Source of the DNA: Candidatus Eremiobacter antarcticus
GTDB lineage: Bacteria; Vulcanimicrobiota; Vulcanimicrobiia; Eremiobacterales; Eremiobacteraceae
NCBI GenBank assembly: GCA_003244105.1
Contig: QHBK01000004.1
Location: 62,001 to 126,000 of the forward strand
DNA length: 64,000 nucleotides
Reading direction: 5' to 3'
The position numbers and the translations under genes are program-made. Shown piece by piece: positions 7,297 to 28,611 of the stretch; within the stretch, counting starts at the first letter, position 1; every line of letters begins with the position of its first letter. The notes beneath the pieces were generated by a model that saw only the letters and a program-made list of their open reading frames with translations, did not search any database and was not told where the DNA came from.

Positions 7297-10577
<3,281 letters not shown>

Positions 10578-10596
10578 GCTCCGGCGCTCGGCTCTT

Positions 10597-12480
10597 TCAT
10601 CGCTCGACGCGCTCGAATATCACGGCGGCCAGCGCAGGGAGCGCTATCTCCAAACGATACGCAAATGCCTTGTGCGGTTGCGCGACCGCCTCAACCGCCA
10701 CCTCGGCCGGCTGCGCATCGCCGGCGTCTCCCCGATAACGGGGCGCGTCGCTGTTGAAAAGCATGCGGTAGCTGCCTCCCGAGGGCACGCCGGTCACGTA
10801 GCGCTCGTACGGATTCGGCGAAAAATTCAACATGATGATGAGCGACTGCGTTTCGAAACTGCGGCGAAACGCGATGGTCGAACGCTCCGCATCGTCAGGT
10901 TCGAGCCATTGAAATGAATCGGAATCGAACTCGGCTGCGTGCAGCGCGGGCGATGCAGCGTACAGCGCGTTTAAGTCGCGCAGCGCCGCTGTCACCCCGC
11001 GATGCTGCGGCATGCTGCTCAACCCCCAGTCCAGCGGCCGGCTCACATCCCAGCCGTGCAGTTCGGCAAATTCATTGCCCATGAAGTTGAGCTTTTTCCC
11101 CGGGTACGTCAATTGGTAAGCGAACAAGAGCCGTATGCCCGCGAGCTTGTGCACCTCGTCGCCGTACATCTGCTCGAACAACGATCGGCGCAGGCTCGAG
11201 ACCTCGTCGTGCGACAGGCTCAGCACGAACTTCTCGGTGTGCGCATACATACGGCCGAAGGTGAGATCTCGATGGTTGGCGGGCCGCTCGTCCCAGGTGC
11301 GCCGCATGTAGGCGAGGGTGTCGTTGGCCCAACCCATGTTCCACTTCATCGAGAATCCCAGCCCCCCGCGCTTGGGCGACTCGGAGACCTTCGGCCAAGC
11401 CGTGGATTCCTCGGCTACCGTGAACGCGTGCGGTGCCACGTCGTGGAGATGTTGGTTGAGCTCGCGCAAGAATTTGACCGCAGGCAGATTTTCACGCCCG
11501 CCCAAGGGGTTTCGCTTCCACGCCGAGTCCGAGCGCGCATCGTCGAGATAGAGCATCGAAGAGACCGCATCGACTCGCAGGCCGTCCACGTGGAATTCGC
11601 GCAGCCAATAGAGCGCGTTTGACAGCAAGAAGTTCCTCACCTCAGCGCGCCCATAGTTGAAGATCAGCGTGCGCCAGTTCGGATGCTCCGCCATCGCCGG
11701 GTCGGTTCGTTCGTACAACGGACCGCCGTCGTACTCCACCAGGCCCCACTCATCTCTAGGGAAATGCAGCGGAACCCAGTCCAGGATGACGCCGATCCCG
11801 TCGCGGTGCAACACATCCACGAACGTTCGGAACTCGTCCGGCGTGCCGAACCTGCTGGTGGGGGCGTAATAGCCGGTGACGAGATAGCCGAGCGACTCCA
11901 TCAACGGATGCTCGAAGATCGGCAGCAGCTCGACGTGCGTGAAGTGAAGATCGCGCGCGTGGGCAGACAGCTCCCGGGCAAGCTCCGCGTAGCGCGGCGC
12001 CCCACGCGAAGCGGACCAAGACGCGAGGTGCACCTCGTAGATGTTCAAGGGCTCGCGCTGCCAGCTCCAGCGCGCGCGGCCCTCCAGCCAAGCCTCATCG
12101 CTCCATGCGAACGAGGGCGGTTCCACGACGACCGCGTTGGTGTTCGTGGGTTCGGGAAAGGCGCGCGCGTACGGGTCTGTTTTGATCACGATGCGCCCGC
12201 TGCGCTCGTGACGCATTTCGAACTTGTACTGCGTTCCGGCTCGAAGTCCCGGCACGAACAACTGCCACACCCCGGCCGCATCCGCGCGTTGCATGCGATG
12301 GCCGCGTCCATCCCAGTCGTTGAAATCGCCGACGACGCTCGCAGCGCCCGCGTGCGGCGCCCACGTCGCAAAACGCACGCCGGACGCGCCGTCCACATCG
12401 CAGCAGTGCGCGCCGAGCTTGTCATACGCATCGTAGAGCCTGCCCTTATGAAAAAGCCGCAGGTCGTGAGCCGTCAGCAT
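10597..12480 (-). CDS. glgB: 1,4-alpha-glucan branching enzyme (GH13)
   Basis: The 627-residue protein has an N-terminal CBM48 domain (VRFATWAPHAGAASVVGDFNDWDG at about 33-57) followed by a GH13 barrel. The nucleophile region is GLRVDAVSSML, the acid/base is in FTVAEESTAWP, and LSHDE carries the third catalytic carboxylate. It creates alpha-1,6 branches in glycogen. Length fits the short bacterial form. It is upstream of glgA in a minus-strand pair and divergent from glgC over about 160 bases that must hold both promoters. I see no clear -10/-35 there. Confidence 0.97.
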   Translation of the reverse strand: MLTAHDLRLFHKGRLYDAYDKLGAHCCDVDGASGVRFATWAPHAGAASVVGDFNDWDGRGHRMQRADAAGVWQLFVPGLRAGTQYKFEMRHERSGRIVIKTDPYARAFPEPTNTNAVVVEPPSFAWSDEAWLEGRARWSWQREPLNIYEVHLASWSASRGAPRYAELARELSAHARDLHFTHVELLPIFEHPLMESLGYLVTGYYAPTSRFGTPDEFRTFVDVLHRDGIGVILDWVPLHFPRDEWGLVEYDGGPLYERTDPAMAEHPNWRTLIFNYGRAEVRNFLLSNALYWLREFHVDGLRVDAVSSMLYLDDARSDSAWKRNPLGGRENLPAVKFLRELNQHLHDVAPHAFTVAEESTAWPKVSESPKRGGLGFSMKWNMGWANDTLAYMRRTWDERPANHRDLTFGRMYAHTEKFVLSLSHDEVSSLRRSLFEQMYGDEVHKLAGIRLLFAYQLTYPGKKLNFMGNEFAELHGWDVSRPLDWGLSSMPQHRGVTAALRDLNALYAASPALHAAEFDSDSFQWLEPDDAERSTIAFRRSFETQSLIIMLNFSPNPYERYVTGVPSGGSYRMLFNSDAPRYRGDAGDAQPAEVAVEAVAQPHKAFAYRLEIALPALAAVIFERVER

Positions 12481-12644
12481 GTGATGTCAGGGTGCAGCTT
12501 TAGCGGTGAGCCCGGTATTTCAGGCGAATGCCGGACGGTGTTCGAACGCTCTGGTCCGTACCCTTTGCGCGCTTCGTCAACGCCATTGGCGCTCGGCACA
12601 CGCAGGCCGCGAACGAGGTGTTGATGCAAGCAGGAGACGTTCAT

Positions 12645-13925
12645 GTGACCGCGGCCTCCGAAAAGCCGCGCTTCGTCAGCCTGCTGACGAAGGCGACGCT
12701 CGCGCTGATCCTCGCGGGCGGACGAGGCTCGCGACTCATGCACCTCACCCGCTGGCGCGCCAAGCCTGCCGTGCCCTTCGGCGGCAAATTCCGCATCATC
12801 GACTTCCCCTTGTCCAATTGCATGAACTCAGGCATCCGCCGCATGGGCGTCGTCACGCAGTACAAGGCGCATAGCCTCATGCGGCACATCCAGCGGGGCT
12901 GGGGGTTCTTGCGCGGCGAGTTCGACGAGTTCGTCGAGCTCATGCCGGCGTCGCAGCGCATGGAAGAGGAATCCTGGTACACGGGTACGGCCAACGCGAT
13001 CTTGCAGAACCTCGACATCATCAAAGCGCACGACCCGGAGTTCATCCTAGTGCTGGCCGGCGATCATGTGTACAAGATGGATTACGGCCAAATGCTGGTC
13101 CAGCACGTCGCGCAGCAGGCGGATGCCACCGTAGGCTGTTTTCCGCTTCCGCTGGCTGACGCAGTGGAGCTCGGCACGATGAGCATCGACGGCAACGACC
13201 GCATCACCGCCTTTGCCGAAAAGACGCCCTCGCCGATCCCGTTGCCCGATCAGCCGGACACGACGCTCGCGAGCATGGGCATCTACGTGTTCAACGCGCG
13301 CTTCCTCTACGAACAGCTCCAGCGCGACGCTCAGCTCGAGGAATCGACGCACGACTTCGGGCGCGACGTCATTCCGCATGTGGTGGCGCACCACAAGGCT
13401 GTGGCCCACAGGTTCGGCCCGGCCAGCCTGGGCGGACGAGGCGGCGGGATCTACTGGCGCGACGTCGGGACAGTCGACGCGTATTGGGAAGCGAACATGG
13501 ACCTCACGGCAGTCGTGCCGAAGCTCGATCTTTACGACGCAAGCTGGCCCATTTGGACCTATCAGGAACAGGCGCCGCCCGCAAAGTTCGTGTTCGACGA
13601 ACAGCAGCGCCGGGGCGAAGCGGTGAACTCACTTGTCGCCGGCGGCTGCATCGTGTCGGGCGCGCACGTTCAGAACTCGTTGCTCTTCCCCAATGTGCGG
13701 GTGAATTCGTTTGCCTCGATCGTTGATTCTGTCATTCTTCCGAACGTCAACGTCGCGCGGAACTGCCGCATCCGGCGCTCGGTCATCGACAAAGGCTGCC
13801 GGCTTCAGGACGGCCTCACGGTGGGATACGATGAGGCCCAGGATGCGGAGCGCTTCTACCGCACGGACAGCGGCATCACGCTCGTCACGGCCGAGATGCT
13901 GGGCCAAGGGCCGGAAGACGAATGA
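12645..13925 (+). CDS. glgC: Glucose-1-phosphate adenylyltransferase
   Basis: GlgC makes ADP-glucose from ATP and glucose-1-phosphate, the regulated step of glycogen synthesis. The N-terminal nucleotidyltransferase motif LALILAGGRGSRL and the downstream KPAVPFGGKFRIIDFPLSN and GTANAI blocks are intact, and a left-handed beta-helix occupies the C-terminal third. I prefer the GTG at 12645 because AGGAG lies eight bases upstream, giving 426 residues (E. coli GlgC has 431). ATGs at 12624 and 12528 are in frame alternatives. Its stop abuts the convergent GT9 gene. Confidence 0.95.
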   Translation: MTAASEKPRFVSLLTKATLALILAGGRGSRLMHLTRWRAKPAVPFGGKFRIIDFPLSNCMNSGIRRMGVVTQYKAHSLMRHIQRGWGFLRGEFDEFVELMPASQRMEEESWYTGTANAILQNLDIIKAHDPEFILVLAGDHVYKMDYGQMLVQHVAQQADATVGCFPLPLADAVELGTMSIDGNDRITAFAEKTPSPIPLPDQPDTTLASMGIYVFNARFLYEQLQRDAQLEESTHDFGRDVIPHVVAHHKAVAHRFGPASLGGRGGGIYWRDVGTVDAYWEANMDLTAVVPKLDLYDASWPIWTYQEQAPPAKFVFDEQQRRGEAVNSLVAGGCIVSGAHVQNSLLFPNVRVNSFASIVDSVILPNVNVARNCRIRRSVIDKGCRLQDGLTVGYDEAQDAERFYRTDSGITLVTAEMLGQGPEDE

Positions 13926-14966
13926 TCAGACGTGCGCGGGTTGAGCCTCGCTGAGGGCGGCCTCGTTTCTTTGCAGCGCCGCACGCGCTTCTTCCAGTGC
14001 TGACAGGACGTCGTCGGGACGTATCTGCAAGAGCCCGGCGTCGACTTCGTGTCCGTGCGGATCTCCGCTTCGGCCCTTCCAAAGCGCGCGGTTCCACGGT
14101 CGCTGCGGCGGTGGCCCCCAGAGCGACGGAGAGATGGGCCCGCACAATACGACCGACGGCTTGCGATAGGCGGTGGCCAAGTGAGCGACGCCGGTATCGC
14201 CGCAGATGACGCAGGCTGCGGCTGCCACGGTCGCCGCCAACTCCAGCAACGTCGTCCGACCGGCGACGACGCAATCCTTGTCCAGACCCGCCTCCGCGGC
14301 GATCTCAAAGGCAACCGTCGCCTCATCCGCGCCGCCAGAGATGACGATGCGCTCGCCCCGATCGCGCAAGGCTACGGCCACTTCTGCGAAGCGCTCGGGC
14401 GGCCAGCGCCGCGCCGGGTCCTTGGCTCCGCCGTGGATGACGACCGCGCCTCGCAAGGTTGCCGGCACAGCGACGGGCGGCACAGGCAGATCGAGGTCCT
14501 GCGGATCGCACGAGATGCCGTTGCCTGCTAGCAGCCTGCACCAGCGCCGCACTTCATGTTCGTCCTGCTCCCATGGCGGCTGGCCGGCGCTTTCAGGCAC
14601 GGCTTCGCTGCGAAACGCCATGAGTCTGTGGGGCCTCGCGTCCAGCAACACCCGATGACTGCGCGGCCCTCGGCCGTGCATGTCCACCGCGATGTCCGCG
14701 CCCTGCAGCCACGCGGCCAGAGGCTCATGCGGTTGCGTGTCGACCACATCGTCAAAGGCTCCGCTGAGGCTGGCGAGGTCGCTCAACGCAGCGGACGCCG
14801 CCAAGAGGATGCGATGTTGTGGAAAGGCTCTCTTGAGGCCGCGAGCGGCAGGCAGCGCAGTGAGCAAGTCGCCCAAGCCCAACGGCCGCAGGACGACGAT
14901 CAGGGGCCGACCGTCAGTTGGTGGCTTCGTACGCCCTCGCCGTGCGCTTCGCGAGCAAACTTTCAT
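13926..14966 (-). CDS. Glycosyltransferase family 9 (heptosyltransferase-like)
   Basis: A 346-residue GT-B protein of the ADP-heptose:LPS heptosyltransferase family. Visible motifs are VVLRPLGLGDLLTALPA in the N-terminal domain, an IHGGAKDPARRWPPERFAEVA block, and the C-terminal CGDTGVAHLATAYRKPSVVLCGP nucleotide-sugar region. It is the last gene of the six-gene glycan operon. The ATG at 14966 overlaps the previous gene by about 50 bases and no closer standard start exists. It probably adds a sugar, possibly heptose, to a cell-surface glycan. Confidence 0.85.
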   Translation of the reverse strand: MKVCSRSARRGRTKPPTDGRPLIVVLRPLGLGDLLTALPAARGLKRAFPQHRILLAASAALSDLASLSGAFDDVVDTQPHEPLAAWLQGADIAVDMHGRGPRSHRVLLDARPHRLMAFRSEAVPESAGQPPWEQDEHEVRRWCRLLAGNGISCDPQDLDLPVPPVAVPATLRGAVVIHGGAKDPARRWPPERFAEVAVALRDRGERIVISGGADEATVAFEIAAEAGLDKDCVVAGRTTLLELAATVAAAACVICGDTGVAHLATAYRKPSVVLCGPISPSLWGPPPQRPWNRALWKGRSGDPHGHEVDAGLLQIRPDDVLSALEEARAALQRNEAALSEAQPAHV

Positions 14967-16128
14967 AGATCTCAAGCGTGTCGCGCGCGATGCGAGGCCA
15001 GCCGTAGCGAGCGCGAGCGCGTGCGGCACCGTTCCGGCCCAAATGCGCGCGGCGTTCCTCGTCGGCAAGCAGCGACTGTAAAGCGTTCGCCAGAGGCTGC
15101 GGCGCTTTCGGCGGCACGTGTAAACCGGTCACGCCGTGCACGACCGTATCGATCAGACCGCCGACGGCCGATGCCACGACGGGTATGCCGCATGCCATCG
15201 CTTCGAGCGGCACAATGCCGAACGGTTCGTACCAAGGCACGCACGCTACGACGTCCGCCGAACGCAGCAGCGCGGGGACGTCTTGCCGATCGACCCGACC
15301 GCGGAAGTGCACGCGATCGGCGACGCCGCAATCGGATGCCCGCTTCCGCAGACGCTGCGCCTCGGGGTCGTCGCCGAGTCGCGCGAGCGGAGGGCCGCCC
15401 GCGATCACGAGCTCTGCCTCGGGCACATCGGCCAGCGCCTCGACCACATCGGCGATGCCCTTGCGCTCCACCAGCCTGCTCAGCACGACGATCCGCCGGC
15501 CTGCGGTTTTTTGCTCCGCCGGTCCCTCGGGAGTGAAGAGAGCAAGGTCAACGCCGCAAGGAACGACGCGGATGCGGCGAGGATCTGCGCCCTGGCGCAG
15601 CAGTTCGAAAACTTCTTGACTGGCGGTTGCGATCACGCGGTCCGCCTTGCACATAATCGCGCGTTCTTCGGCTAACCTCACAGGTGGGCTCGTGTCCTTG
15701 GCGCCTTGATGGCGCCGCTTTTCGATTCCCAAGGCGTGAAACGTCTGCACGACGGGAAGTTCACAAGCCGCCGCAGCCGCCAACGCCGCTCGTCCGGACA
15801 TCCAGAAATGCGCGTGCACGACGTCGGGGCGCATCCTCTCCCACTCGCAACGCAGCCGGTCGGCGAACTCGTCCATGTGGCAGAACAGATCATCTTTGGG
15901 GAGCTCGCGCGCCGGACCGGCGTCCACGTGCTCGATGACGACGCGGTGCAAGAAGTCGACCGTCTTCGGCAGTGCCGGATCGTCGCGCCGGGTGTAGACC
16001 GTGACATGGTTCCCTTGTTTGGCCATCTCCGTGGCGAGCGCCGCGACGTGGACGTTTTGACCGCCGGCATCGACGCCGCCGAGAACCGCGAGCGGACTCG
16101 CATGCTCGGAAACCATCGCGATGTTCAT
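14914..16128 (-). CDS. Glycosyltransferase family 4
   Basis: A 404-residue GT-B glycosyltransferase resembling sucrose-phosphate-synthase/MshA-type enzymes. The N-terminal LGGVDAGGQNVHVAALA loop is typical, and the C-terminal donor site has EPFGIVPLEAMACGIPVVAS with the E-x7-E pair. The ATG at 16128 is preceded by GGAGGTG and overlaps the stop of the upstream gene by four bases (ATGA). The acceptor cannot be told from sequence. It is the fifth gene of the operon that starts with the carbamoyltransferase. Confidence 0.88.
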   Translation of the reverse strand: MNIAMVSEHASPLAVLGGVDAGGQNVHVAALATEMAKQGNHVTVYTRRDDPALPKTVDFLHRVVIEHVDAGPARELPKDDLFCHMDEFADRLRCEWERMRPDVVHAHFWMSGRAALAAAAACELPVVQTFHALGIEKRRHQGAKDTSPPVRLAEERAIMCKADRVIATASQEVFELLRQGADPRRIRVVPCGVDLALFTPEGPAEQKTAGRRIVVLSRLVERKGIADVVEALADVPEAELVIAGGPPLARLGDDPEAQRLRKRASDCGVADRVHFRGRVDRQDVPALLRSADVVACVPWYEPFGIVPLEAMACGIPVVASAVGGLIDTVVHGVTGLHVPPKAPQPLANALQSLLADEERRAHLGRNGAARARARYGWPRIARDTLEIYESLLAKRTARAYEATN

Positions 16129-17063
16129 CGCGTCACCTCCGTCAAGAGCTCGTCCCAATCGCTCAAAAACCGGGGCAGCCCATACCTGGTCAGTGCGGCT
16201 TCCCGCGCCGACTCTCCGAGCGCTCGCGCTTGCGCCGGATCGTTGAGCAGCGCTTTGGCCGCATGGATCAGGACGTCGACTCGTGTCGAGACCACGCCCG
16301 CCTCGGGCGGCACCGCTTCCGGTATTTCCGTCGTGGCAAGCGCGACGACGGGCATGCCGAGCTGCATGGCCTCGATAAGCGAAAGTCCAAGCGACGTCCA
16401 ACGAACGGGGTGCAAGTACAGCCGCCGTTTGGCGATCTCTTCGTGCAGTTGTGCTTGCGGCAAGTTCTCGATGCCGCCCAAAGCGCGCGCTTCCATGCCG
16501 AACAGATCCACCGGCACATGCGCCGAGAAACGAGGCAGCAAGTCGGTGCCGGTGACGCGGCCACGCCGGCCCGCTTCGTTGATGACGACGGCCGAGCGGT
16601 CGATCTCGCCCGTGTATCGATAGCCGGGATCGACGATGCCATGCTCGATGACGCGCGTCCGCGTTGTGCCGGTATCCCAAAACAGGTCGTTGAAATGCGT
16701 GACGTGGACGACAGTCAGGTCCGGCCTGTCTGCAGCGGGGTGACGCATCCCCTCGATGTCGCCTTGCGGCGCGTCGTGCTCGAGGTACACCGCCCGCACG
16801 TCGCGGCCGGGTTTCCGCCCTCCCAACCACCATTCGGCGAGTCCGCTGAGCTCATGGGGGCGTTGCAAGATGACGACGTCCACTTCAGCGGCTGCCAGCT
16901 CGCTTGGCGTGAGCTCGACGGCGGATTCCGGCCACGACCACGTGCGCGCGCGGCCGCGTCCGTCAGGCCCCCTATCCGGCAGCACGGGCAGCAGATAACG
17001 GTGCCGTCCTTGGACGAACGCTGTCGTCCACGAGCCGTGCACGTGCCATAACAAAACGTTCAT
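16125..17063 (-). CDS. Putative glycosyltransferase (GT-B fold, GT4-like)
   Basis: The 312-residue protein has a C-terminal donor-site block (HPVRWTSLGLSLIEAMQLGMPVVALATTEIPEAV) like GT4 enzymes. The N-terminal half is divergent (MNVLLWHVHGSWTTAFVQG). It is shorter than most GT4 proteins by 60-90 residues, mostly from the N-terminal domain. It overlaps both neighbours by four bases, so translation is probably coupled. Donor and acceptor are unknown; context suggests a surface glycan. Confidence 0.75.
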   Translation of the reverse strand: MNVLLWHVHGSWTTAFVQGRHRYLLPVLPDRGPDGRGRARTWSWPESAVELTPSELAAAEVDVVILQRPHELSGLAEWWLGGRKPGRDVRAVYLEHDAPQGDIEGMRHPAADRPDLTVVHVTHFNDLFWDTGTTRTRVIEHGIVDPGYRYTGEIDRSAVVINEAGRRGRVTGTDLLPRFSAHVPVDLFGMEARALGGIENLPQAQLHEEIAKRRLYLHPVRWTSLGLSLIEAMQLGMPVVALATTEIPEAVPPEAGVVSTRVDVLIHAAKALLNDPAQARALGESAREAALTRYGLPRFLSDWDELLTEVTR

Positions 17064-18097
17064 AACGCGGCGGGAACGGAACGTCTCGCGCTCAGAGCAT
17101 CAAGCGCCGCGAGCACATCACGTACGCGCAGTGAATTGATGCAAGGCTGTCCGGGCAGCGGGCACTCTCGCGCGCGACAGCCGCTGCACGGGATATCCTG
17201 CACGCCTAAGACGACGTGCGGCACCTTCCATGGGTGAAAGCGCGTGCACGGAATAGTGGGTGGAAAGATCGAGACCACCGGAGTGCCCACCGCTGCGGCG
17301 AGATGCGCTGCGCCGGTATTGCCGACGACGAGAGCGCGCGCGCGTCGTAGGATAGTGGCGAGCGAAGCCAACGTGGTACGCCCGCCCAAGTCGATGGCAC
17401 GCGAGCCGTGCGTTCCGGCGACGAATGTCGTCAGCGCCTTTTCCGATGCGGACCCGGTGACGACGACGCGGTCCCCACGGCGCACGAGTGCCTCCACGAG
17501 CTCTGCGTTCAGCCGCGGTGACCAAGCACGGGCAGGTACGGTCGCGCCGGGATGGACGACGACATAGTGCTCTTCCATGAGGGGCGGCAGTGCATGGCGC
17601 TTGAGCGTGACGGCGAGGCGGCCATCATCGTTGGGCGGCAACGCATAGCCTCTAGTCGCGACGAGGGACAAGGAACGCTCCACTTCGTGCACGTCGTCGT
17701 CGATGGCATGACGCACGTCCAAGAGCGACCCGGGGTAATCGACGCTCGTTGCGGCGATGAATGGAACGCTGGCCATGCGCAGCAGCAGCGCCAGCGGCAG
17801 AGGGCTTTGATGGAATGACGTCAAGATGAACGCTTCGTCGATGTTCATGGCGGCGATGCGGTCGACGAACGCAAGCGTCGTCTGACGGTCCACAGCCTGC
17901 GGACGAGCGTCGATCCACGCTGCGGGCTCCACGATCAGTTCGTCGATCCCGGGGAGCAGCTCAGCCGCCGCTTGACCGCCGGGGCCGCACAGGTAGGTGA
18001 GCCTGCGGGCGCCTGCAGCAACGGCGCGCACGGCGGGCCCGGTCAGCAGCACGTCGCCGTTGTTGTCTTGGCGGGCGATGAGAACACTTGGCTTCAT
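17060..18097 (-). CDS. Glycosyltransferase family 9 (heptosyltransferase-like), second copy
   Basis: A 345-residue GT9 protein: VLIARQDNNGDVLLTGPAVRAV at the N-terminus, VVVHPGATVPARAWSP in the middle and VVGNTGAAHLAAAVGTPVVSIFPP near the donor site. The C-terminus has a cluster of four cysteines (IPCSGCRARECPLPGQPC) often seen in ADP-heptose transferases. It overlaps its neighbours by four bases. It is divergent from the other GT9 in this operon, so the two probably add different residues rather than being a recent duplication. Confidence 0.85.
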   Translation of the reverse strand: MKPSVLIARQDNNGDVLLTGPAVRAVAAGARRLTYLCGPGGQAAAELLPGIDELIVEPAAWIDARPQAVDRQTTLAFVDRIAAMNIDEAFILTSFHQSPLPLALLLRMASVPFIAATSVDYPGSLLDVRHAIDDDVHEVERSLSLVATRGYALPPNDDGRLAVTLKRHALPPLMEEHYVVVHPGATVPARAWSPRLNAELVEALVRRGDRVVVTGSASEKALTTFVAGTHGSRAIDLGGRTTLASLATILRRARALVVGNTGAAHLAAAVGTPVVSIFPPTIPCTRFHPWKVPHVVLGVQDIPCSGCRARECPLPGQPCINSLRVRDVLAALDALSARRSVPAAL

Positions 18098-19698
18098 GTG
18101 CGCCCTGACAGGATGATATCGACTGCTTCACGCAGGTCGCGAGCGACGAGGGGCGCCAACGCGATCTCATCCGCTTGGGTGGCCGGTGTTGGCACGAGGA
18201 CTGCCTGCGCTCCGGCTGCCAGCGCCGCTTGCACGTCAGCGCCGACATCTCCGACCACGACGCAATCGTGCGTCGGCACGCCGAGCGCGTCCGCCGCTTC
18301 GCGCACGAGGCCCGGCGCCGGCTTCCGGCAGTCGCAACCTTCGTCAGAACTGTGCAGGCAGAGGCACCACGGCCCGAGCGGCCCGGCCAATTCCTCGATG
18401 CGTGCATTGACGGCGTCGAGCTGAGCGAGCGAGACGCGGCCGGCAGACACCGAACTTTGATTGGAGACCACGGCGACGGGGATGCCGTTTTCGCGCAGAC
18501 GGCGCAGCGCCTCGCGCGCCCCCGGCATCAACTGCACGCGCTTGGGATCGGTGTTGTCCGGCACATCGACGATCAGCGTTCCGTCGCGATCGAACAAGAC
18601 AGCAGCGGGCGCTTCCCGGCCTGGTAATGCTTTGTGAGAGGGGCGAGTCAAAAGCCGCGGGAGCTGCGCCCACCCTCGCAGCCAGTGCCAGGAAGCGGCA
18701 AACGGGATCAAAGCGCTGGTGAGCAGCATGGCGCGCACCTCGCGTCGATCGCGCGGTCCGGGCGAGATGCGGGCCCAGGCGAATTGAGCGCTGGTGAGGA
18801 GCCACGCCGCCGCGGCGACCTTTGCCAGCCGCCGCTTGCCGGCCAAGAAGGCGACACATGCCGTCAACGCCGCCGTGGTCGCGACGAGGTGCTGTGGTAA
18901 CCGCCCGCGGGGCGCTCCGGCTCTTTCGTACCAGTCGCGGCCGTGCAGCGCGGACATCAGCACGTCGTCTTGGTTGCCCGCTTGCAATCGAACGCTGACA
19001 AAGGTCCCGCCCGGCCTGACGGGATGACTGACGTGCCGCTTCCCAGGCACGATGCGCAGTCCACGCGAGACGAAGCGCAAAGCGATATCGGCGTCCTCGC
19101 GATACGCGCGCGGAAATCGTTCGTCGAAACCGCCGACAGCCGTCAACGCATCACGCCGATACGCCATGTCCGCAGTGATCCAACGCGCGGTCTCCAGCCC
19201 TTTGACGTTGCGCTCCCAGTCCGTCGGCCGCCTTGCGGCCTGCAATGGCACGCTGACTCGACCGCTGACACCGCAGACCTCAGCCGGTCGGCTGCCTTTG
19301 GCATTCGAGCCGCTTTCAGCAGCAGCGAGATCTGAGATGAGATCGGGCAACCACCGTTCGTCAGGCACGACGTCGTCGTCCAAAAAAGCGATCCACTGCG
19401 CGGCGGCTGATCGCCATCCGGCATTGCGGGAGGCGGCTGGACCGGCGGCCGCGCCGCTTACGATGCGGATCTGCAACGCACCGGCCGGCAGGGGCCCTCC
19501 GGGGATCAGCTCAGTGCGCTTCTCTTTGCGGTCGTCCACAAGCACGATCGCGCCGACCACATCGCGGGATTTAGCGTCGTCGGCCGAGCGGTCGCCGTCG
19601 TAAAGCTCGGCCGACCCTTGCAGGCGTTGCAGCAGCGTGATCAGCGAGGGCCGCCCGACGGTCGGAATCACGATGTCGACGCGCGGCGCCGGGCTCAT
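18094..19698 (-). CDS. Fused GT2 glycosyltransferase and GmhB-like HAD phosphatase
   Basis: The 534-residue protein joins two enzymes. Residues about 5-270 are a GT2 domain (VDIVIPTVGRPS start, DDD at 107-109, a WITADMAYRRDAL acceptor-side block). Hydrophobic segments at about 272-305 and 324-338 suggest membrane association. Residues about 365-534 are a HAD-IIIA phosphatase with FDRDGT at 369-374, SNQSSVS and a zinc-loop cysteine cluster (CLH...CDC), as in D-glycero-D-manno-heptose-1,7-bisphosphate phosphatase. The ATG at 19698 overlaps the previous stop (ATGA). A fused GmhB domain supports heptose metabolism in this operon. Confidence 0.82.
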   Translation of the reverse strand: MSPAPRVDIVIPTVGRPSLITLLQRLQGSAELYDGDRSADDAKSRDVVGAIVLVDDRKEKRTELIPGGPLPAGALQIRIVSGAAAGPAASRNAGWRSAAAQWIAFLDDDVVPDERWLPDLISDLAAAESGSNAKGSRPAEVCGVSGRVSVPLQAARRPTDWERNVKGLETARWITADMAYRRDALTAVGGFDERFPRAYREDADIALRFVSRGLRIVPGKRHVSHPVRPGGTFVSVRLQAGNQDDVLMSALHGRDWYERAGAPRGRLPQHLVATTAALTACVAFLAGKRRLAKVAAAAWLLTSAQFAWARISPGPRDRREVRAMLLTSALIPFAASWHWLRGWAQLPRLLTRPSHKALPGREAPAAVLFDRDGTLIVDVPDNTDPKRVQLMPGAREALRRLRENGIPVAVVSNQSSVSAGRVSLAQLDAVNARIEELAGPLGPWCLCLHSSDEGCDCRKPAPGLVREAADALGVPTHDCVVVGDVGADVQAALAAGAQAVLVPTPATQADEIALAPLVARDLREAVDIILSGRT

Positions 19699-21344
19699 GA
19701 GAACGACTGCGCCACGGACGAACGGCGAAGCAGGAATGGTCCGATCGCAAGCGCGTCGATTGGAGCCGAACCGAAACACTCCAGCGCATCGCGCGGGTCG
19801 TCGACCATCGGCCGTCCCGCGGTGTTCAAGCTGGTGTTGATGACGACCGGCACGCCGCTGCGGCGTTCAACGGACTCGAGCATGCGCGCCACCAGCGGCT
19901 CGTCGCTCGAATCGACCGTTTGCACCCGCGCGGTGCCGTCGACATGGACGGCTGCGGGGATTCGCTGCAGCCACGCGGGCCGCACCCGATGCGTGAACAG
20001 CATATACGGGCTTGGCAGCGGTCCGTCGAAGATCTCTGCGGCCCGCTCGCGCAAGACCATTGGGGCAACGGGACGGAACTGCTCGCGGCCCTTGATGTCA
20101 TTGAGTCTCGACAGGTTTGACAGGTCCGTCGCATTGGCCAGTAGGCTGCGGTGGCCCAAGGCGCGCGGACCATATTCGCTGCGACCTTGAAACCACGCGA
20201 CGACGCCGTTGTCCTGAATGATCTGAGCGACGGATTCAGCGATATCGACCGGCTTCTCAAAGCCGACCCTGGCCGTGAGCAGCCACTGCTCGAGTTCCCG
20301 GTCCGTCCACTCGCGGCCAAGCGCAGCGCTGTCCATGGGCTTCACGTCATCGCCAAGCGAATGAGCCACTGCAAGCGCCGCTCCCAGCGCGGTGCCGGCG
20401 TCACCGGCAGCCGGCTGCACCCAGACGCTTTGGAACGGCCCTTCACGAGCGAGGCGTGAGTTCGCGACGCAATTCAGCGCAACGCCGCCTGCCATTGAGA
20501 GATGCTGATCGCCCGTCCGCGTGTACAGCCACTGGGCCAGCTCCAGGAGCACCTCTTCGAGGCGTGCCTGCATGCTCGCCGCCACATCGGCGTCTTGCGG
20601 TGAGAACGCTTCGTCGGGTGCGACTCGCGGCGGGGAAAATCTGGTCCAGTCGATCGGTTGGGCTTCAAAGCCCCCGTCGGCCGTGACGACAATGCAGCGC
20701 CGCAGCTCGGGCAAGAAGAGGGGTTTGCCGTAGGCGGCCAGCGCCATCACCTTATACTCGTCCGAGGAGCGCCGAAACCCCAAGTGCTCAGTGAGCTCTT
20801 CGTAGCGCAGGCCCAGAGAGTGAGGAAGCCGTTGAGATGCGAGGATCTCGAAATCGCCTCCGCTCGCTCGGCCCGCCAGGTACGAGGTACGCTCCCCGCG
20901 GCCGTCCATCACCATCACGCTGCAATCGCGCTGCGGGCCGGCCAGGTAAGCGGAGGCGGCGTGAGCGATGTGGTGGGGAACGAAGTGCGCCTTGGCCGGA
21001 TCGAGTCCGGGCAACGCGGTGCGCAAGAACAGCGGCGCGTGCTGAACGTACAGCGTCCGCAATCCCTCCCACTCTTGCGCGGTGAGATCGCCGTTCAGCT
21101 GGATCGCGAGCGCTGGATCGTAGGAATACGCAACCGCATCGAGTGCGTCTGGCCGTAAGCCGGCTTTCTCCAGACACCAGGCGGCCGACAACTGCGGAAC
21201 CTCCCACGTCGAGAATGGCACGCACTCCTTGCCATGTTTGCGGCGGGAGAAGCGCTCTTCTTCAGCCGCGGCGATGATGCGGCCGTCGACGACGATCGCT
21301 GCCGCCGGGTCATGAAAAACAGCATTGACTCCTAAAATTCGCAT
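19695..21344 (-). CDS. Carbamoyltransferase (NodU/CmcH family)
   Basis: The 549-residue protein has the N-terminal Kae1-like domain (MRILGVNAVFHDPAAAIV, EEERFSRRKHG) with the histidine motif HHIAHAASAY. The YrdC-like C-terminal domain has FQGRSEYGPRALGHRSLLA. These enzymes use carbamoyl phosphate and ATP to carbamoylate a hydroxyl, often on a sugar. It is the first gene of the six-gene minus-strand glycan operon and overlaps the GT2-HAD gene by four bases, so the likely substrate is a sugar built by the downstream glycosyltransferases. Confidence 0.92.
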   Translation of the reverse strand: MRILGVNAVFHDPAAAIVVDGRIIAAAEEERFSRRKHGKECVPFSTWEVPQLSAAWCLEKAGLRPDALDAVAYSYDPALAIQLNGDLTAQEWEGLRTLYVQHAPLFLRTALPGLDPAKAHFVPHHIAHAASAYLAGPQRDCSVMVMDGRGERTSYLAGRASGGDFEILASQRLPHSLGLRYEELTEHLGFRRSSDEYKVMALAAYGKPLFLPELRRCIVVTADGGFEAQPIDWTRFSPPRVAPDEAFSPQDADVAASMQARLEEVLLELAQWLYTRTGDQHLSMAGGVALNCVANSRLAREGPFQSVWVQPAAGDAGTALGAALAVAHSLGDDVKPMDSAALGREWTDRELEQWLLTARVGFEKPVDIAESVAQIIQDNGVVAWFQGRSEYGPRALGHRSLLANATDLSNLSRLNDIKGREQFRPVAPMVLRERAAEIFDGPLPSPYMLFTHRVRPAWLQRIPAAVHVDGTARVQTVDSSDEPLVARMLESVERRSGVPVVINTSLNTAGRPMVDDPRDALECFGSAPIDALAIGPFLLRRSSVAQSFS

Positions 21345-21490
21345 GCGAGCGCTCTACCCACAGCGCTTTGAAAACAAACAAGCGAACCCATAACCATGCG
21401 GGTTTGCGCACAAGCAGCAAGCAGCAGTCCGCTTTTCTTAGCCTCAGTTACGAACAGACGCCTTATTCGTCGCGGATTGAATGGATGAGA

Positions 21491-21496
21491 TACAAT
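21491..21496 (+). promoter_or_regulatory. Candidate -10 element for a leaderless CYTH-CHAD transcript
   Basis: TACAAT lies eight bases before the ATG of the CYTH-CHAD gene, and no ribosome binding site is present between them. Transcription would start at or within a couple of bases of the start codon. No convincing -35 is visible at the right spacing. Confidence 0.35.
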
Positions 21497-21504
21497 AGTG
21501 CTCT

Positions 21505-23001
21505 ATGGAGATGAGGATCGAAAACGAGATCAAGCTGCGCGTGCCTGCCAACTTCGACATCTCACGCGCGATCGCACATGCCGGCCCTTTCACCGCAATG
21601 CCACTCGAAAAGCGCACGCTTCAAACGGTATACTACGATACCGCCGATTTGCGTCTAACGCGTTGGGGCAGCGGCTTACGGTATCGCGCCGGCGACGGCT
21701 GGATGTTGAAGCTCGGACTGCCGAAGGGCGATGCCGGGTTGCGACGGCTCGAAGTGACCGCCGCTGCCGGCAGCTCGGGCGCCCCACCCGCCGAGCTCCT
21801 TGAGGTCGCGACCGCGTTTCTGCGCGGCGAGGCCGTGCGGCCGGTCAGCCGTCTTCGCACGCTGCGCAAAAGCATGCGACTGTGCGATAAGGATGGCCGC
21901 GACGTGGCGGAGGTCGTCGACGACAATGTCCGGGCTACATCCGATGATCGGCCGGCTATCCGCTGGCGCGAGATAGAGATCGAGCTGTGCGAGGGCGCAG
22001 CTGCATCCCGGCTGCGCGAGCTGCAAGTTGCCTTCGAATATCTGGGAGGCGATGCTACGGATCAAACGCCGAAGCATGTGCGGGCATTAGGCCTGAGGAC
22101 TCCCTTGAGATGCGAATTGGACGCCCCATCGGTCGGCCGGTCCAGCAGCTGCGCCGACGTCATCCGTGCCGCCTTGACTTCATCTGTCGAACGTCTGTTG
22201 CGCCAAGACGCCTTCCTTCGATTGGACATGGACGCCGACGCGGTGCATGCGGCGCGCGTTGCGACTCGCCGCCTGCGCTCGGATTTGCGAACGTTCCTTC
22301 CCTTGTTGGAGCGCTCGTTCGCATGCGATCTCCGCGATCAGCTGAAGTGGCTGGCCTCGGAGCTGGGAGCCGTGCGAGACGCAGACGTGCTCGTGCAACG
22401 GCTTCGCGCAGGCGAACCTAGCTTACCGGCCAGCTATCGCCCGTCCGTGCGCAGAACGGTGAGTCGCTTTGTCGCAGAGTGTGCGGCTGCCCGCGAGCGG
22501 CTGCGCGAGGTCCTCAAAGACCAACGCTACTGCGATCTCCTCGCGCGACTGATCACCGCTGCCTCGGAGCCGCGTTTGGCGGCCGCAGCTCACAGTCCGG
22601 CGAGCGACGTGCTGCCCACGCTCATGCGCGATCCTTGGGGCAAGCTTTGTGAGGCTGTGCAGGCAGTGGACGACGGCGACCATAGCGCCGCGCGATTGCA
22701 CCAGGTGAGAATCCGCGCAAAGCGATGCCGCTATGCGGCCGAGGCGGCCGTACCGGTCGTGGGAAAGGCGGCGCGCAGATTTGCCAAGCGCGTGGAGCGG
22801 CTGCAGCGGGTCCTCGGTGAGTTCCACGACGCCAACGTCGCGGAACAGCGTCTGCGAAAGCTGTCGGGGGACGGAGACACGATGTTCGCGGCTGGATTGC
22901 TCGCCGCACTGCAAGCGCTGGATGCGGCCGCCGCCCGAGAGGCGTGGCGCAAAGCGTGGCGCAAGGCGGACAAGAAGCGCCTTCGCACATGGATTCTCTG
23001 A
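21505..23001 (+). CDS. CYTH and CHAD domain protein
   Basis: The 498-residue protein has an N-terminal CYTH domain with the E-x-E-x-K motif at residues 6-10, YYDTADLRL at about 43-51 and a WREIEIEL strand. From about residue 220 it has a CHAD domain rich in His and Arg (DAVHAARVATRRLRSDLRTFLPLL and HQVRIRAKRCRYAAEA). CYTH domains hydrolyse or bind triphosphates and CHAD domains bind polyphosphate, so a role in polyphosphate metabolism is likely. It is divergent from the carbamoyltransferase and converges with serS. Confidence 0.9.
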   Translation: MEMRIENEIKLRVPANFDISRAIAHAGPFTAMPLEKRTLQTVYYDTADLRLTRWGSGLRYRAGDGWMLKLGLPKGDAGLRRLEVTAAAGSSGAPPAELLEVATAFLRGEAVRPVSRLRTLRKSMRLCDKDGRDVAEVVDDNVRATSDDRPAIRWREIEIELCEGAAASRLRELQVAFEYLGGDATDQTPKHVRALGLRTPLRCELDAPSVGRSSSCADVIRAALTSSVERLLRQDAFLRLDMDADAVHAARVATRRLRSDLRTFLPLLERSFACDLRDQLKWLASELGAVRDADVLVQRLRAGEPSLPASYRPSVRRTVSRFVAECAAARERLREVLKDQRYCDLLARLITAASEPRLAAAAHSPASDVLPTLMRDPWGKLCEAVQAVDDGDHSAARLHQVRIRAKRCRYAAEAAVPVVGKAARRFAKRVERLQRVLGEFHDANVAEQRLRKLSGDGDTMFAAGLLAALQALDAAAAREAWRKAWRKADKKRLRTWIL

Positions 23002-25558: not shown

Positions 25559-26863
25559 GTGACGTCGACCCTTAGAAGCGGCTTGGAACCGAGATTTCCT
25601 TTGCGCGCGGTCACAATAGCCCAAGCGCTTGACGCTATGGCCTCGTTTGCCGTGCGCCGTGCCGTCTCAGAGCGGGTCGCGGTTGCCGACGCCGAGGGCC
25701 GCATCACCGCCGAGGCGCTGCAAGCGAGCGAAGACGTGCCGCCTTTTGCGCGCTCGCGCGTCGACGGCTATGCGGTCATCGCTTCCGAGGTCGAGTCGGC
25801 CACCGCCAAGCAGCCCGTTCGGTTGAAGTTGGGCGGCGAGGTGCGCATGGGCGAAGCGGTGGCGCCGGTTCTCCGAGCGGGAGAGACGGTTCGCGTGCCG
25901 ACGGGAGGCGCGCTGCCCTCCAACGCCGGCGGTGTCGTGATGCTCGAAGACACGTCGCTGCAAGAGACGATCGGTGAATCCGATGGCGTCGCCCGCACGA
26001 TCGTGGACGTGTACGACGGCGCGCAGTGCGATCGTCACATCACGCCGTCTGCAAGCGATCTGCATGCCGGCCAGCAGCTTTTCGATGCTGGCACGGTTTT
26101 GAGTCCTGCGGCTGTTGGCTTGCTCGCGGGCGCCAACGTCTCCCAGGTCGAGGTGTTCCGCAAGCCGCTCGTGGGCGTGCTCGTGACCGGCGATGAGCTG
26201 GTCGTCGCAGGCGAACCTCGCGCTCAAGGTCAGGTACGCGACATCAACAGCGTATCGCTCTCGGCGGCGCTTCGCGCGATGGGATTCGTTCCTCGCCGCT
26301 TCGCAATCATCGCCGACGATCGCGCCGCATTCGCCGCGTCCCTGGAGGAAGCGCTGGCGAGCTGCGATGCAGTGCTGATATCCGGTGGGTCGAGCGTCGG
26401 AGCGCGAGATTATACGCCCGACGTGGTCGCAGCCGCCGGCGGCCCTGGTGTCATCGTACATGGAATACGCGCCAAACCCGGGCGGCCAGCCCTGCTGGCG
26501 ATGATCGGCGAGCAGCCCGTCATCGGACTGCCGGGCAATCCCGTCTCCGCGCTCGTCGTTTTGGAAGCCGTCGCAAAGCCGGTCCTGCTGCGGATGTTCG
26601 GCAAGCACGATGCAGTCTTACCGTATCGCGCGCGGCTCGAACGGCGCATTGAGGTCGAACCGGAACTGGAGCATCGCATTGCGGTCCGGCTGGTCGAAAG
26701 CGACGGGGGACTGCTGGCTCGACCGCTCATCGGCACATCGGCGCAGATGCATACGCTGGCCTTTGCTGATGCGATGATCGTCATACCGCAGGGCTGCGGG
26801 GGCGCCGACGCTGGCGCATGGGTCGACGCCATTCCTTTTTCCAGGTCCGGAACCGGGCGTTGA
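25559..26863 (+). CDS. moeA: Molybdopterin molybdotransferase MoeA (first copy)
   Basis: The 434-residue protein has the MoeA domain order: an N-terminal DVPPFARSRVDGYAV block, a VLVTGDELV segment, the molybdopterin-binding ISGGSSVGARDYT motif, and GLPGNPVSALVVLE before the beta-barrel C-terminal domain. It inserts molybdate into adenylated molybdopterin. The annotated GTG at 25559 lies directly after a possible promoter (TTGGCG-17-TACATT, 25530-25558). If that is real, the true start may be the TTG at 25583. It overlaps the second moeA by one base (TGATG). Confidence 0.93.
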   Translation: MTSTLRSGLEPRFPLRAVTIAQALDAMASFAVRRAVSERVAVADAEGRITAEALQASEDVPPFARSRVDGYAVIASEVESATAKQPVRLKLGGEVRMGEAVAPVLRAGETVRVPTGGALPSNAGGVVMLEDTSLQETIGESDGVARTIVDVYDGAQCDRHITPSASDLHAGQQLFDAGTVLSPAAVGLLAGANVSQVEVFRKPLVGVLVTGDELVVAGEPRAQGQVRDINSVSLSAALRAMGFVPRRFAIIADDRAAFAASLEEALASCDAVLISGGSSVGARDYTPDVVAAAGGPGVIVHGIRAKPGRPALLAMIGEQPVIGLPGNPVSALVVLEAVAKPVLLRMFGKHDAVLPYRARLERRIEVEPELEHRIAVRLVESDGGLLARPLIGTSAQMHTLAFADAMIVIPQGCGGADAGAWVDAIPFSRSGTGR

Positions 26864-28611
26864 TGCGCGGCGTCCAACTGCCACAACTCGCATACGAGGA
26901 AGCGATCGGGCTGTGGCACGCCTCTCTCGAGGCGGCGGGTTGCCTGCAACCGGTCTCCGGAGAAACAGTCGCGCTGACGGATGCAGCCGGCCGCGTACCT
27001 TTGCAGTACCTGCGAACGCTGTGCGCGTCGCCCGGTTATCGCGCCGCTGCCATGGATGGCTTCGCGGTCGCAGCCGCTCGCCTCGGCAGCGCTCGCACAG
27101 ACCGGCCGGTCTCACTGAACGTGGGTCTCGGCGCCGTTCCCATCGACACCGGCGGCGCTCTCGACGATTCGTGCGATGCGGTCGTGCCGGTCGAAGACGT
27201 CAGCGTCGACGGCGACACGGTGCGCTTCTTCTCGGCCATCGTCGCCGGAAAGAACGTTCGGCTTCCTTGTGAAGACGTGCCGCCCGGAGTCGCCATCGGC
27301 AGACCGGGGTGGCCGCTGCGCGCGCAAGAGTGCGCGGCGCTGATCGCGGGTGGCTGCCTGACGATTGAGGTGGCACGACGGCCGCGCGTCGCCGTCATCC
27401 CCTCAGGCAACGAGGTGGTCCCGCCAGGAACTGATAAAGGCGCCGGCTTCGTCGTCGACAGCAATTCAACGATGATCGCCGCGCAGGCGCGCGCGCTCGG
27501 GGCCGAGGTCACCGTCTTCGGCATCGTGCCCGATGTCGTTGAAAGAATCGTGGAAACCTTGCGGCGCGCAGCGGCGGACGCAGATCTCGTGCTGTTGCTG
27601 GCAGGTTCTTCGCGGGGACGACGAGATCGATCGCACGACGCCATAGCATCGATCGGTGAAGTGGCGGTGCACGGCGTCGCAACGCGACCCGGTAAGCCGG
27701 TTGTGCTCGGTCGCATCCGGAAGGCGGCGGTCGTGAATCTGCCGGGTTATCCGGTGGCGGCCCAAGTCGCGTTCAGTCTCTACGCTGTCCCTTTGCTTCG
27801 CCGCTGGACGGGCGCTCAACAGCCCGAGGCAGATCCGCCCGAGGTCGAGGAAAACGTTCGGCTCGGCGTCGGCCTCGAAACCGACGGCAAGGCAGATGAA
27901 TGGCGCAACGTCGCTCTGCATCGCGACGCTTCCGACGAGCTCATCGCTGTGCCGCAACCGATCGGCGGCGCGCTCTACCGCCTTGCACAAGCGGACGGCG
28001 TCATCCACCTGCGACGCGGGGAATGTCGGTGGTCACGTTTCACCGAGGTACCCGCCGCGCTCGCGCGGCCCGGTCGCTACCTCGACATGCCGCTTCTTAT
28101 CGGCCCGTACGATCCGTTGATCGAAGAGATCGCCGCGTTGACGAATTTTCGGTGCTCGTGGTGCAGCGACGACGAGCATCCCGATGTGGCGGGCGGCGCT
28201 TGCGATGCCGCGGGCTTTCTGGGTCAGGCCGACGCACCGGCGGCCGGCCCAGACGCCAACCGGATGCTCGTCGGTTCGCGCATCGAAGGCATCGCAGACA
28301 AGCGCGGCGGACAACGGTCAACCCCTCCGGGGGGGACACCCGAGCGCTCCGAGGGTGACCCGTGGCGCCGCGCGGCGGCCGTCGCGTGCGGCTTCGCGAC
28401 CGACCCGCGCTGCAGCGCTTACTTGGCGCGACGCTTCGGTCTTCAACTGTTCGAGCCGCACGATGTGCCATACTTCGTCGCTTGGAGCGACGGGGCGCCT
28501 GCGGACTGGCGAGACATGCTGCAGCGGGGAATGCAAGCCCTCGCCGGGCAACTCGAATTCTTCGGATGGCGATGTCTTGCGACGCCGCAGCGCGACGGCG
28601 TACCAGCTTGA
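26863..28611 (+). CDS. MoeA-like protein with C-terminal PBP-like domain (second copy)
   Basis: The 582-residue protein has a MoeA domain over about the first 390 residues (PGYRAAAMDGFAV, VAVIPSGNEVVP, VVNLPGYPVAAQVAF). The rest is a periplasmic-binding-protein-like domain, as in MoeA-PBP fusions thought to sense or deliver molybdate or tungstate. The molybdopterin-binding loop reads LLAGSSRGRRDRSHDA, which differs from the first copy (SGGSSVGARDYT). A Pro/Gly/Glu-rich insert encoded by a palindromic stretch (28316-28360) interrupts the C-terminal domain. The pair may handle two metals or two cofactor forms. Confidence 0.85.
   Translation: MRGVQLPQLAYEEAIGLWHASLEAAGCLQPVSGETVALTDAAGRVPLQYLRTLCASPGYRAAAMDGFAVAAARLGSARTDRPVSLNVGLGAVPIDTGGALDDSCDAVVPVEDVSVDGDTVRFFSAIVAGKNVRLPCEDVPPGVAIGRPGWPLRAQECAALIAGGCLTIEVARRPRVAVIPSGNEVVPPGTDKGAGFVVDSNSTMIAAQARALGAEVTVFGIVPDVVERIVETLRRAAADADLVLLLAGSSRGRRDRSHDAIASIGEVAVHGVATRPGKPVVLGRIRKAAVVNLPGYPVAAQVAFSLYAVPLLRRWTGAQQPEADPPEVEENVRLGVGLETDGKADEWRNVALHRDASDELIAVPQPIGGALYRLAQADGVIHLRRGECRWSRFTEVPAALARPGRYLDMPLLIGPYDPLIEEIAALTNFRCSWCSDDEHPDVAGGACDAAGFLGQADAPAAGPDANRMLVGSRIEGIADKRGGQRSTPPGGTPERSEGDPWRRAAAVACGFATDPRCSAYLARRFGLQLFEPHDVPYFVAWSDGAPADWRDMLQRGMQALAGQLEFFGWRCLATPQRDGVPA
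28316..28360. repeat. Palindromic GC-rich element inside the second moeA
   Basis: An imperfect inverted repeat (left arm begins GGTCAACCCCTCCGG, right arm ends GCTCCGAGGGTGACC) lies within the coding sequence and is translated as a STPPGGTPERSEGD-like insert. Its base use differs from flanking codons and it keeps the frame. It looks like a small mobile palindrome that was tolerated in a surface loop. Confidence 0.45.

Follow-up and report, generated by a model that had tools for sequence, protein, structure and literature searches.

The closest described relative of the locus analyzed here is the cwg operon of Streptomyces coelicolor, a set of 12 genes (SCO6179-SCO6190) reported in 2002 by Hong et al. 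(cited by PMC6767563 and PMC5839063). In the account given by PMC6767563, the operon has been known since 2002 as a sigma-E target that is induced by vancomycin, and its product is a cell wall glycan by prediction only, S. coelicolor included. The literature that we searched yielded no structure for this product. Published gene products include a heptosyltransferase (cwgE), a phosphoheptose isomerase (cwgH) and a bifunctional synthase/transferase (cwgI). A second system for comparison is the lipopolysaccharide (LPS) core of Pseudomonas, which contains carbamoylated heptose and for which WapO (PA5005) is the putative enzyme (PMC8005017). WapO is likewise a carbamoyltransferase inside a heptose-glycan gene set. 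The likeness to our locus is drawn at the level of described function, and the gene neighbourhoods of the two differ.

Our locus lies in a stretch of 64,000 nucleotides (the window), which is part of a 2.64-Mb genome in 19 contigs. From 21344 down to 13926, the minus strand of the window encodes a carbamoyltransferase (CbT), a GT2-HAD fusion, a GT9, a GT4-like (GT4L), a GT4 and a second GT9 glycosyltransferase (Table 1), and all six open reading frames have a Pfam match above the cut-off. ATGA overlaps can be read from the sequence at four junctions (19695-19698, 18094-18097, 17060-17063 and 16125-16128), and, with ATG 14966 as its start (the likeliest one, although not proven), the last GT9 gene shares about 53 nt with the preceding GT4 gene. 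For the fusion gene, ATG 19698 (534 aa) is the likely start, rather than the upstream GTG 19779. Six genes in this order, on this strand and overlapping head-to-tail is what a previous interpretation of the same DNA (the sequence-only reading) had described, and from the overlaps it is a fair inference that they would form one transcript. The operon is flanked by a convergent glgC-like gene that ends at 13925 and by a divergent gene at 21505. The gap before the latter is the expected site of the putative promoter, and a sigma-70 promoter scan of these 160 nt found no sigma-70 type site. The glgC-like gene belongs to a group of glgA-, glgB- and glgC-like genes (9093-13925) that directly adjoins the operon, with no gap between glgC and the last GT9 gene. 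Elsewhere in the window, two MoeA-like open reading frames overlap head-to-tail on the plus strand (25559-28611; sequence reading only).

Table 1. Features of the operon and its upstream gap, in window coordinates
Feature	Position	Strand	Support
NodU/TobZ-type O-carbamoyltransferase, 549 aa, cwgB counterpart	19695..21344	-	PF02543 + PF16861 above cut-off
GT2-HAD fusion, 534 aa, cwgC+cwgD counterpart	18094..19698	-	
GT2 (GT-A) domain, fusion residues 1-266	18901..19698	-	PF00535, predicted fold, Foldseek
Interdomain segment with three predicted helices, residues 267-351	18646..18900	-	AlphaFold; weak hydropathy
HAD-IIIA (GmhB-like) phosphatase domain, residues 363-534	18097..18612	-	TIGR01656, Foldseek
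Zinc loop C447-x-H449 ... C455-x-C457	18328..18360	-	Sequence and alignment
GT9 glycosyltransferase, cwgE counterpart	17060..18097	-	PF01075, 90.8 bits
GT4-like glycosyltransferase, cwgF counterpart	16125..17063	-	PF00534
GT4 glycosyltransferase, cwgG counterpart	14914..16128	-	PF00534, PF13439
Second GT9 glycosyltransferase, cwgJ counterpart	13926..14966	-	PF01075, 83.7 bits
Intergenic gap, 160 nt, to the divergent gene at 21505	21345..21504	.	Sequence reading

A presumed list of the Streptomyces cwg genes served only as a lead and was afterwards tested through the published promoter. We probed 394 genomes of the G348 genus with the published cwg sigma-E promoter, which matched exactly in one genome and with one or two mismatches in five. 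In the genome with the exact match (L161), a twelve-gene run starts 147 nt downstream of the promoter, which is the published distance. It encodes an NDP-sugar epimerase, CbT, GT2, HAD, GT9, GT4L, GT4, a SIS isomerase, an HldE-like protein, GT9, GT2 and GT2, in agreement with cwgA-L in gene number and, where published, in products. Judged by promoter and gene content, this genome would belong to S. coelicolor itself or to something very closely related. The window genes are thus homologous, one by one and in the same order, to cwgB-(C+D)-E-F-G-J, with the ordered core CbT-GT2-HAD-GT9-GT4L-GT4 and then the second GT9 present in both operons. Unlike cwg, the window operon has cwgC and cwgD fused and is without cwgA, cwgH, cwgI, cwgK and cwgL. 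The heptose genes cwgH (gmhA-like) and cwgI (hldE-like), absent from the operon, have equivalents on contig C3 of the same genome; the cwgA epimerase and the cwgK/cwgL GT2 pair have no match in the window, and their matches lie beside some other Eremiobacterota operons (L131, L133, L136-L138). Because its own heptose genes, cwgA and cwgK/L are absent, we class the operon as a reduced variant rather than as a full cwg member. On gene content, it is a reduced relative of a known, chemically unsolved system.

When 84,980 species were scanned, each through one genome, at least 80 loci with the fusion were among the matches listed, 79 in Actinomycetota and one in Eremiobacterota. Among these matches, 19 actinobacterial loci have the order CbT-GT2-HAD-GT9-GT4L-GT4-gmhA-hldE-SDR-GT9, and another 19 have the same genes with the two GT4s in front. 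The search for gmhA- and hldE-like genes near related operons, which had been suggested as a check, found them usually inside the actinobacterial cluster (69 of the 79 loci among the matches listed). Scattering of the parts in related genomes had been named as the result that would speak against an operon; the gene order is conserved in many Actinomycetota. Since the block is conserved across two phyla, chance can be ruled out as its origin. In the phylum of G151 (Saccharopolyspora), 297 genomes were sampled and 31 of them gave a match (E up to 1e-40), and in the window's phylum the GT2 part is detectable in about 13 of 149 genomes, which makes the operon patchy there. In a tree of concatenated proteins, a branch with SH-aLRT 100 sets off ten Eremiobacterota loci, that of the window included, which are placed next to a few actinobacterial genomes. 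As the tree is unrooted, it fits transfer between the phyla, in either direction, as well as shared descent. To root the carbamoyltransferase tree we tried distant Amycolatopsis paralogues; their branch was saturated (length 5), and this rooting was dropped.

Two further variations of the gene set were seen. Three other Eremiobacterota loci (L139, L142 and L143) have HAD-GT9-(GT4L)-GT4-GT9 operons where CbT and GT2 matches are absent; here the gene set is smaller, and HAD remains together with the GT9 and GT4 genes. In addition, an SDR-family gene follows hldE in 60 of the 79 actinobacterial clusters among the matches listed (L011-L090) and lies near four Eremiobacterota operons (L129, L133, L136 and L137); no copy was found in the Streptomyces cwg locus L161.

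The AlphaFold model of the fusion (mean pLDDT 92.3) begins with a GT-A-like domain, continues with three helices (267-351) and ends, after a short and flexible linker, in the HAD domain. According to Foldseek, the N-terminal part resembles chondroitin polymerase, TarP and other GT2 enzymes, and the HAD part resembles D,D-heptose 1,7-bisphosphate phosphatases (3l8h, TMt 0.81). The membrane tether assigned to the GT2 is unsupported so far: a hydropathy scan of the fusion gave no clear membrane anchor, with only 1.45 for the best 19-residue window, and a transmembrane segment was set aside as weak. The HAD part scores 101.1 bits against TIGR01656 (cut-off 84.15) and has all of motifs I-IV (D370, D372, S412, K459, D484 and D488). 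We aligned over their full length 42 homologues with 47-59% identity to the window protein. Across the 43 sequences aligned there is no substitution at the nucleophile, the acid/base residue, the lysine or the motif IV aspartates, and each of the zinc ligands C447, H449, C455 and C457 is conserved in at least 42 of 43 homologues. The zinc loop typical of heptose-bisphosphate phosphatases had thus been recognized correctly, and the active site, a defect in which had been listed as an objection, is intact. With GmhB (PDB 4pnh, 3l8h and 2gmw) the domain shares the HAD-IIIA motifs, the C-x-H ... C-x-C loop and the fold, and differs from it in being fused to a GT2. It falls below the GmhB equivalog cut-off (98.9 versus 178 bits), and so does the standalone GmhB encoded beside gmhA in the same genome (133.4 bits).

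Streptomyces L161, L151 and the five Eremiobacterota loci L134-L138 have separate GT2 and HAD genes, and in these loci the HAD gene can begin inside the preceding gene, 4 nt from its end. With such an overlap, a single frameshift joins or separates the two, and on sequence grounds the fusion is one state of an overlapping gene pair. We rejected the idea that it is unique to the window's genome, as all 79 actinobacterial loci among the matches listed have it; these were retrieved with the fusion as query, and split forms are under-sampled. It is plausible that the fusion physically couples the GT2 and HAD activities.

The carbamoyltransferase contains both the N and C Carbam_trans domains (180.4 and 210.9 bits), has TobZ as its best PDB match (3ver, 8.9e-94) and shares 65-66% identity with the Streptomyces cwgB counterparts. 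It aligns with the O-carbamoyltransferases TobZ and NodU over both domains and through the conserved HHxAHAASAY and GDAG segments, while the NodU equivalog cut-off lies far above its score (1000 versus 203.5 bits). Both GT9 enzymes exceed the PF01075 cut-off of 22 bits and are below the equivalog cut-offs of the LPS heptosyltransferases I/II (WaaC/WaaF), with best scores of 65.0 versus 134.6 for the first and 75.6 versus 185.3 for the second.

The absence of a heptose kinase and isomerase noted in the sequence-only reading holds for the window but not for the genome. Contig C3 (L091, 7939-10723) carries gmhA and a gmhB that stands alone, together with genes for a heptose kinase (333 bits, cut-off 345) and a separate adenylyltransferase (152.8 bits, cut-off 181.5). 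Next come an LpxB-like protein (by sequence reading) and several GT2 and GT9 genes. In the apparent LPS-core island formed by this region (L091 7939-17861; G000 contig C3, about 212,900-222,900), GT2 and GT9 genes alternate and end before aspS. The genome also encodes LpxC above its cut-off, which makes lipid A synthesis likely and would set the window's host apart from S. coelicolor. No HldD was found above its cut-off in this genome, so ADP-D-glycero-D-manno-heptose is the likelier donor.

Six actinobacterial genomes that bear the cluster have no full-length TIGR01656 domain above the cut-off other than the fused HAD. As the sole full GmhB-class domain, with gmhA and hldE beside it, it most likely supplies the phosphatase step there, unless an unrelated enzyme acts, and cwgD is accordingly assigned as the likely heptose-bisphosphate phosphatase of the pathway. 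The window's genome and the four other Eremiobacterota tested have two full GmhB-class domains each. Given its standalone GmhB, the fused HAD of the window is not strictly needed for heptose supply, and may be redundant or dedicated to the glycan of the operon.

We propose, with a probability of about 0.72, that these genes are a reduced cwg-type glycan-assembly operon, whose product would be fed by ADP-heptose, capped with carbamoyl and exported to the envelope. This reading rests on the gene order shared with Actinomycetota, including gmhA and hldE in most loci listed, and from the published promoter at its published distance from the expected 12-gene run. It also draws on the intact HAD active site and zinc ligands in a fold like that of heptose-bisphosphate phosphatases, on the four heptose genes of C3, on the fused HAD as sole full GmhB-class domain of six actinobacterial genomes and on the TobZ-type carbamoyltransferase. 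Weighing against it are the five absent cwg genes, the scores of the GT9 enzymes and of the HAD below their equivalog cut-offs, the standalone GmhB and the outcome of the literature search, which gave no cwg product structure. GmhA, the kinase, a GmhB-type phosphatase and the adenylyltransferase would produce ADP-heptose, with the HAD half of the fusion removing the 7-phosphate from heptose 1,7-bisphosphate. Both GT9 enzymes would add heptose from this donor, and the GT2 and two GT4 enzymes would add other sugars. As a finishing step, the carbamoyltransferase would cap a sugar hydroxyl by using carbamoyl phosphate and ATP, and the finished glycan would be exported to the envelope. Of the carbamoylated-heptose glycan suggested earlier, the heptose is strongly supported as a predicted constituent by the clustered genes and by C3; the placement of the carbamoyl group on heptose is unsupported so far. 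Overall, the sequence-only reading was partly supported, and it had missed the kinship with cwg, the commonness of the fusion and the sugar supply elsewhere in the genome.

The same gene homology would also fit an operon that puts a carbamoylated heptose oligosaccharide on the LPS core or O-chain, with a carrier other than the wall supposed for Streptomyces, and we give this somewhat less than an even chance. Homologous operons are mostly found in Actinomycetota, which are not known to make lipid A, and the patchiness within the window's phylum also argues against a role in LPS decoration. In its favor are the lpxC gene, the C3 island of heptose and GT9 genes next to the LpxB-like gene and the Pseudomonas core heptose that is carbamoylated, putatively by WapO (PMC8005017).

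It is improbable that the HAD half is a paralogue acting on another sugar-phosphate, with heptose supplied through the standalone GmhB alone. The two GmhB-class domains in each Eremiobacterota genome tested and the short loop (SSDEG) between zinc ligands H449 and C455 would suit such a paralogue; against it, the heptose-bisphosphate phosphatase chain 4pnh has a loop just as short, no catalytic or zinc residue has been lost, and the actinobacterial copies have no rival candidate for the phosphatase in their genomes. We regard it as very improbable that the operon makes a small secondary metabolite, secreted or lipid-linked, that contains carbamoylated heptose, as in septacidin-type heptose pathways, in place of a surface glycan. 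ADP-heptose does feed the antibiotic septacidin (PMC11461863), and natural products are the substrates of the TobZ, novobiocin and GdmN carbamoyltransferases, but the operon encodes five glycosyltransferase activities and no scaffold-making gene, and Streptomyces cwg is under envelope-stress control (PMC6767563).

Within the cwg-type reading, a more specific scenario is possible, though we put it forward tentatively and consider it rather unlikely in full. In this uncultured phylum that makes lipid A, a cwg-type carbamoylated heptose glycan would hang from LPS or from some other carrier in the outer envelope, the GT2-HAD fusion would couple heptose-bisphosphate dephosphorylation to assembly, and the separate GmhB would serve the core. 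The comparison defines a six-gene core common to two phyla. It predicts that the cwg product contains heptose and a carbamoyl group, which is directly testable in S. coelicolor, and it suggests that ADP-heptose glycans of the cwg type are not tied to LPS.
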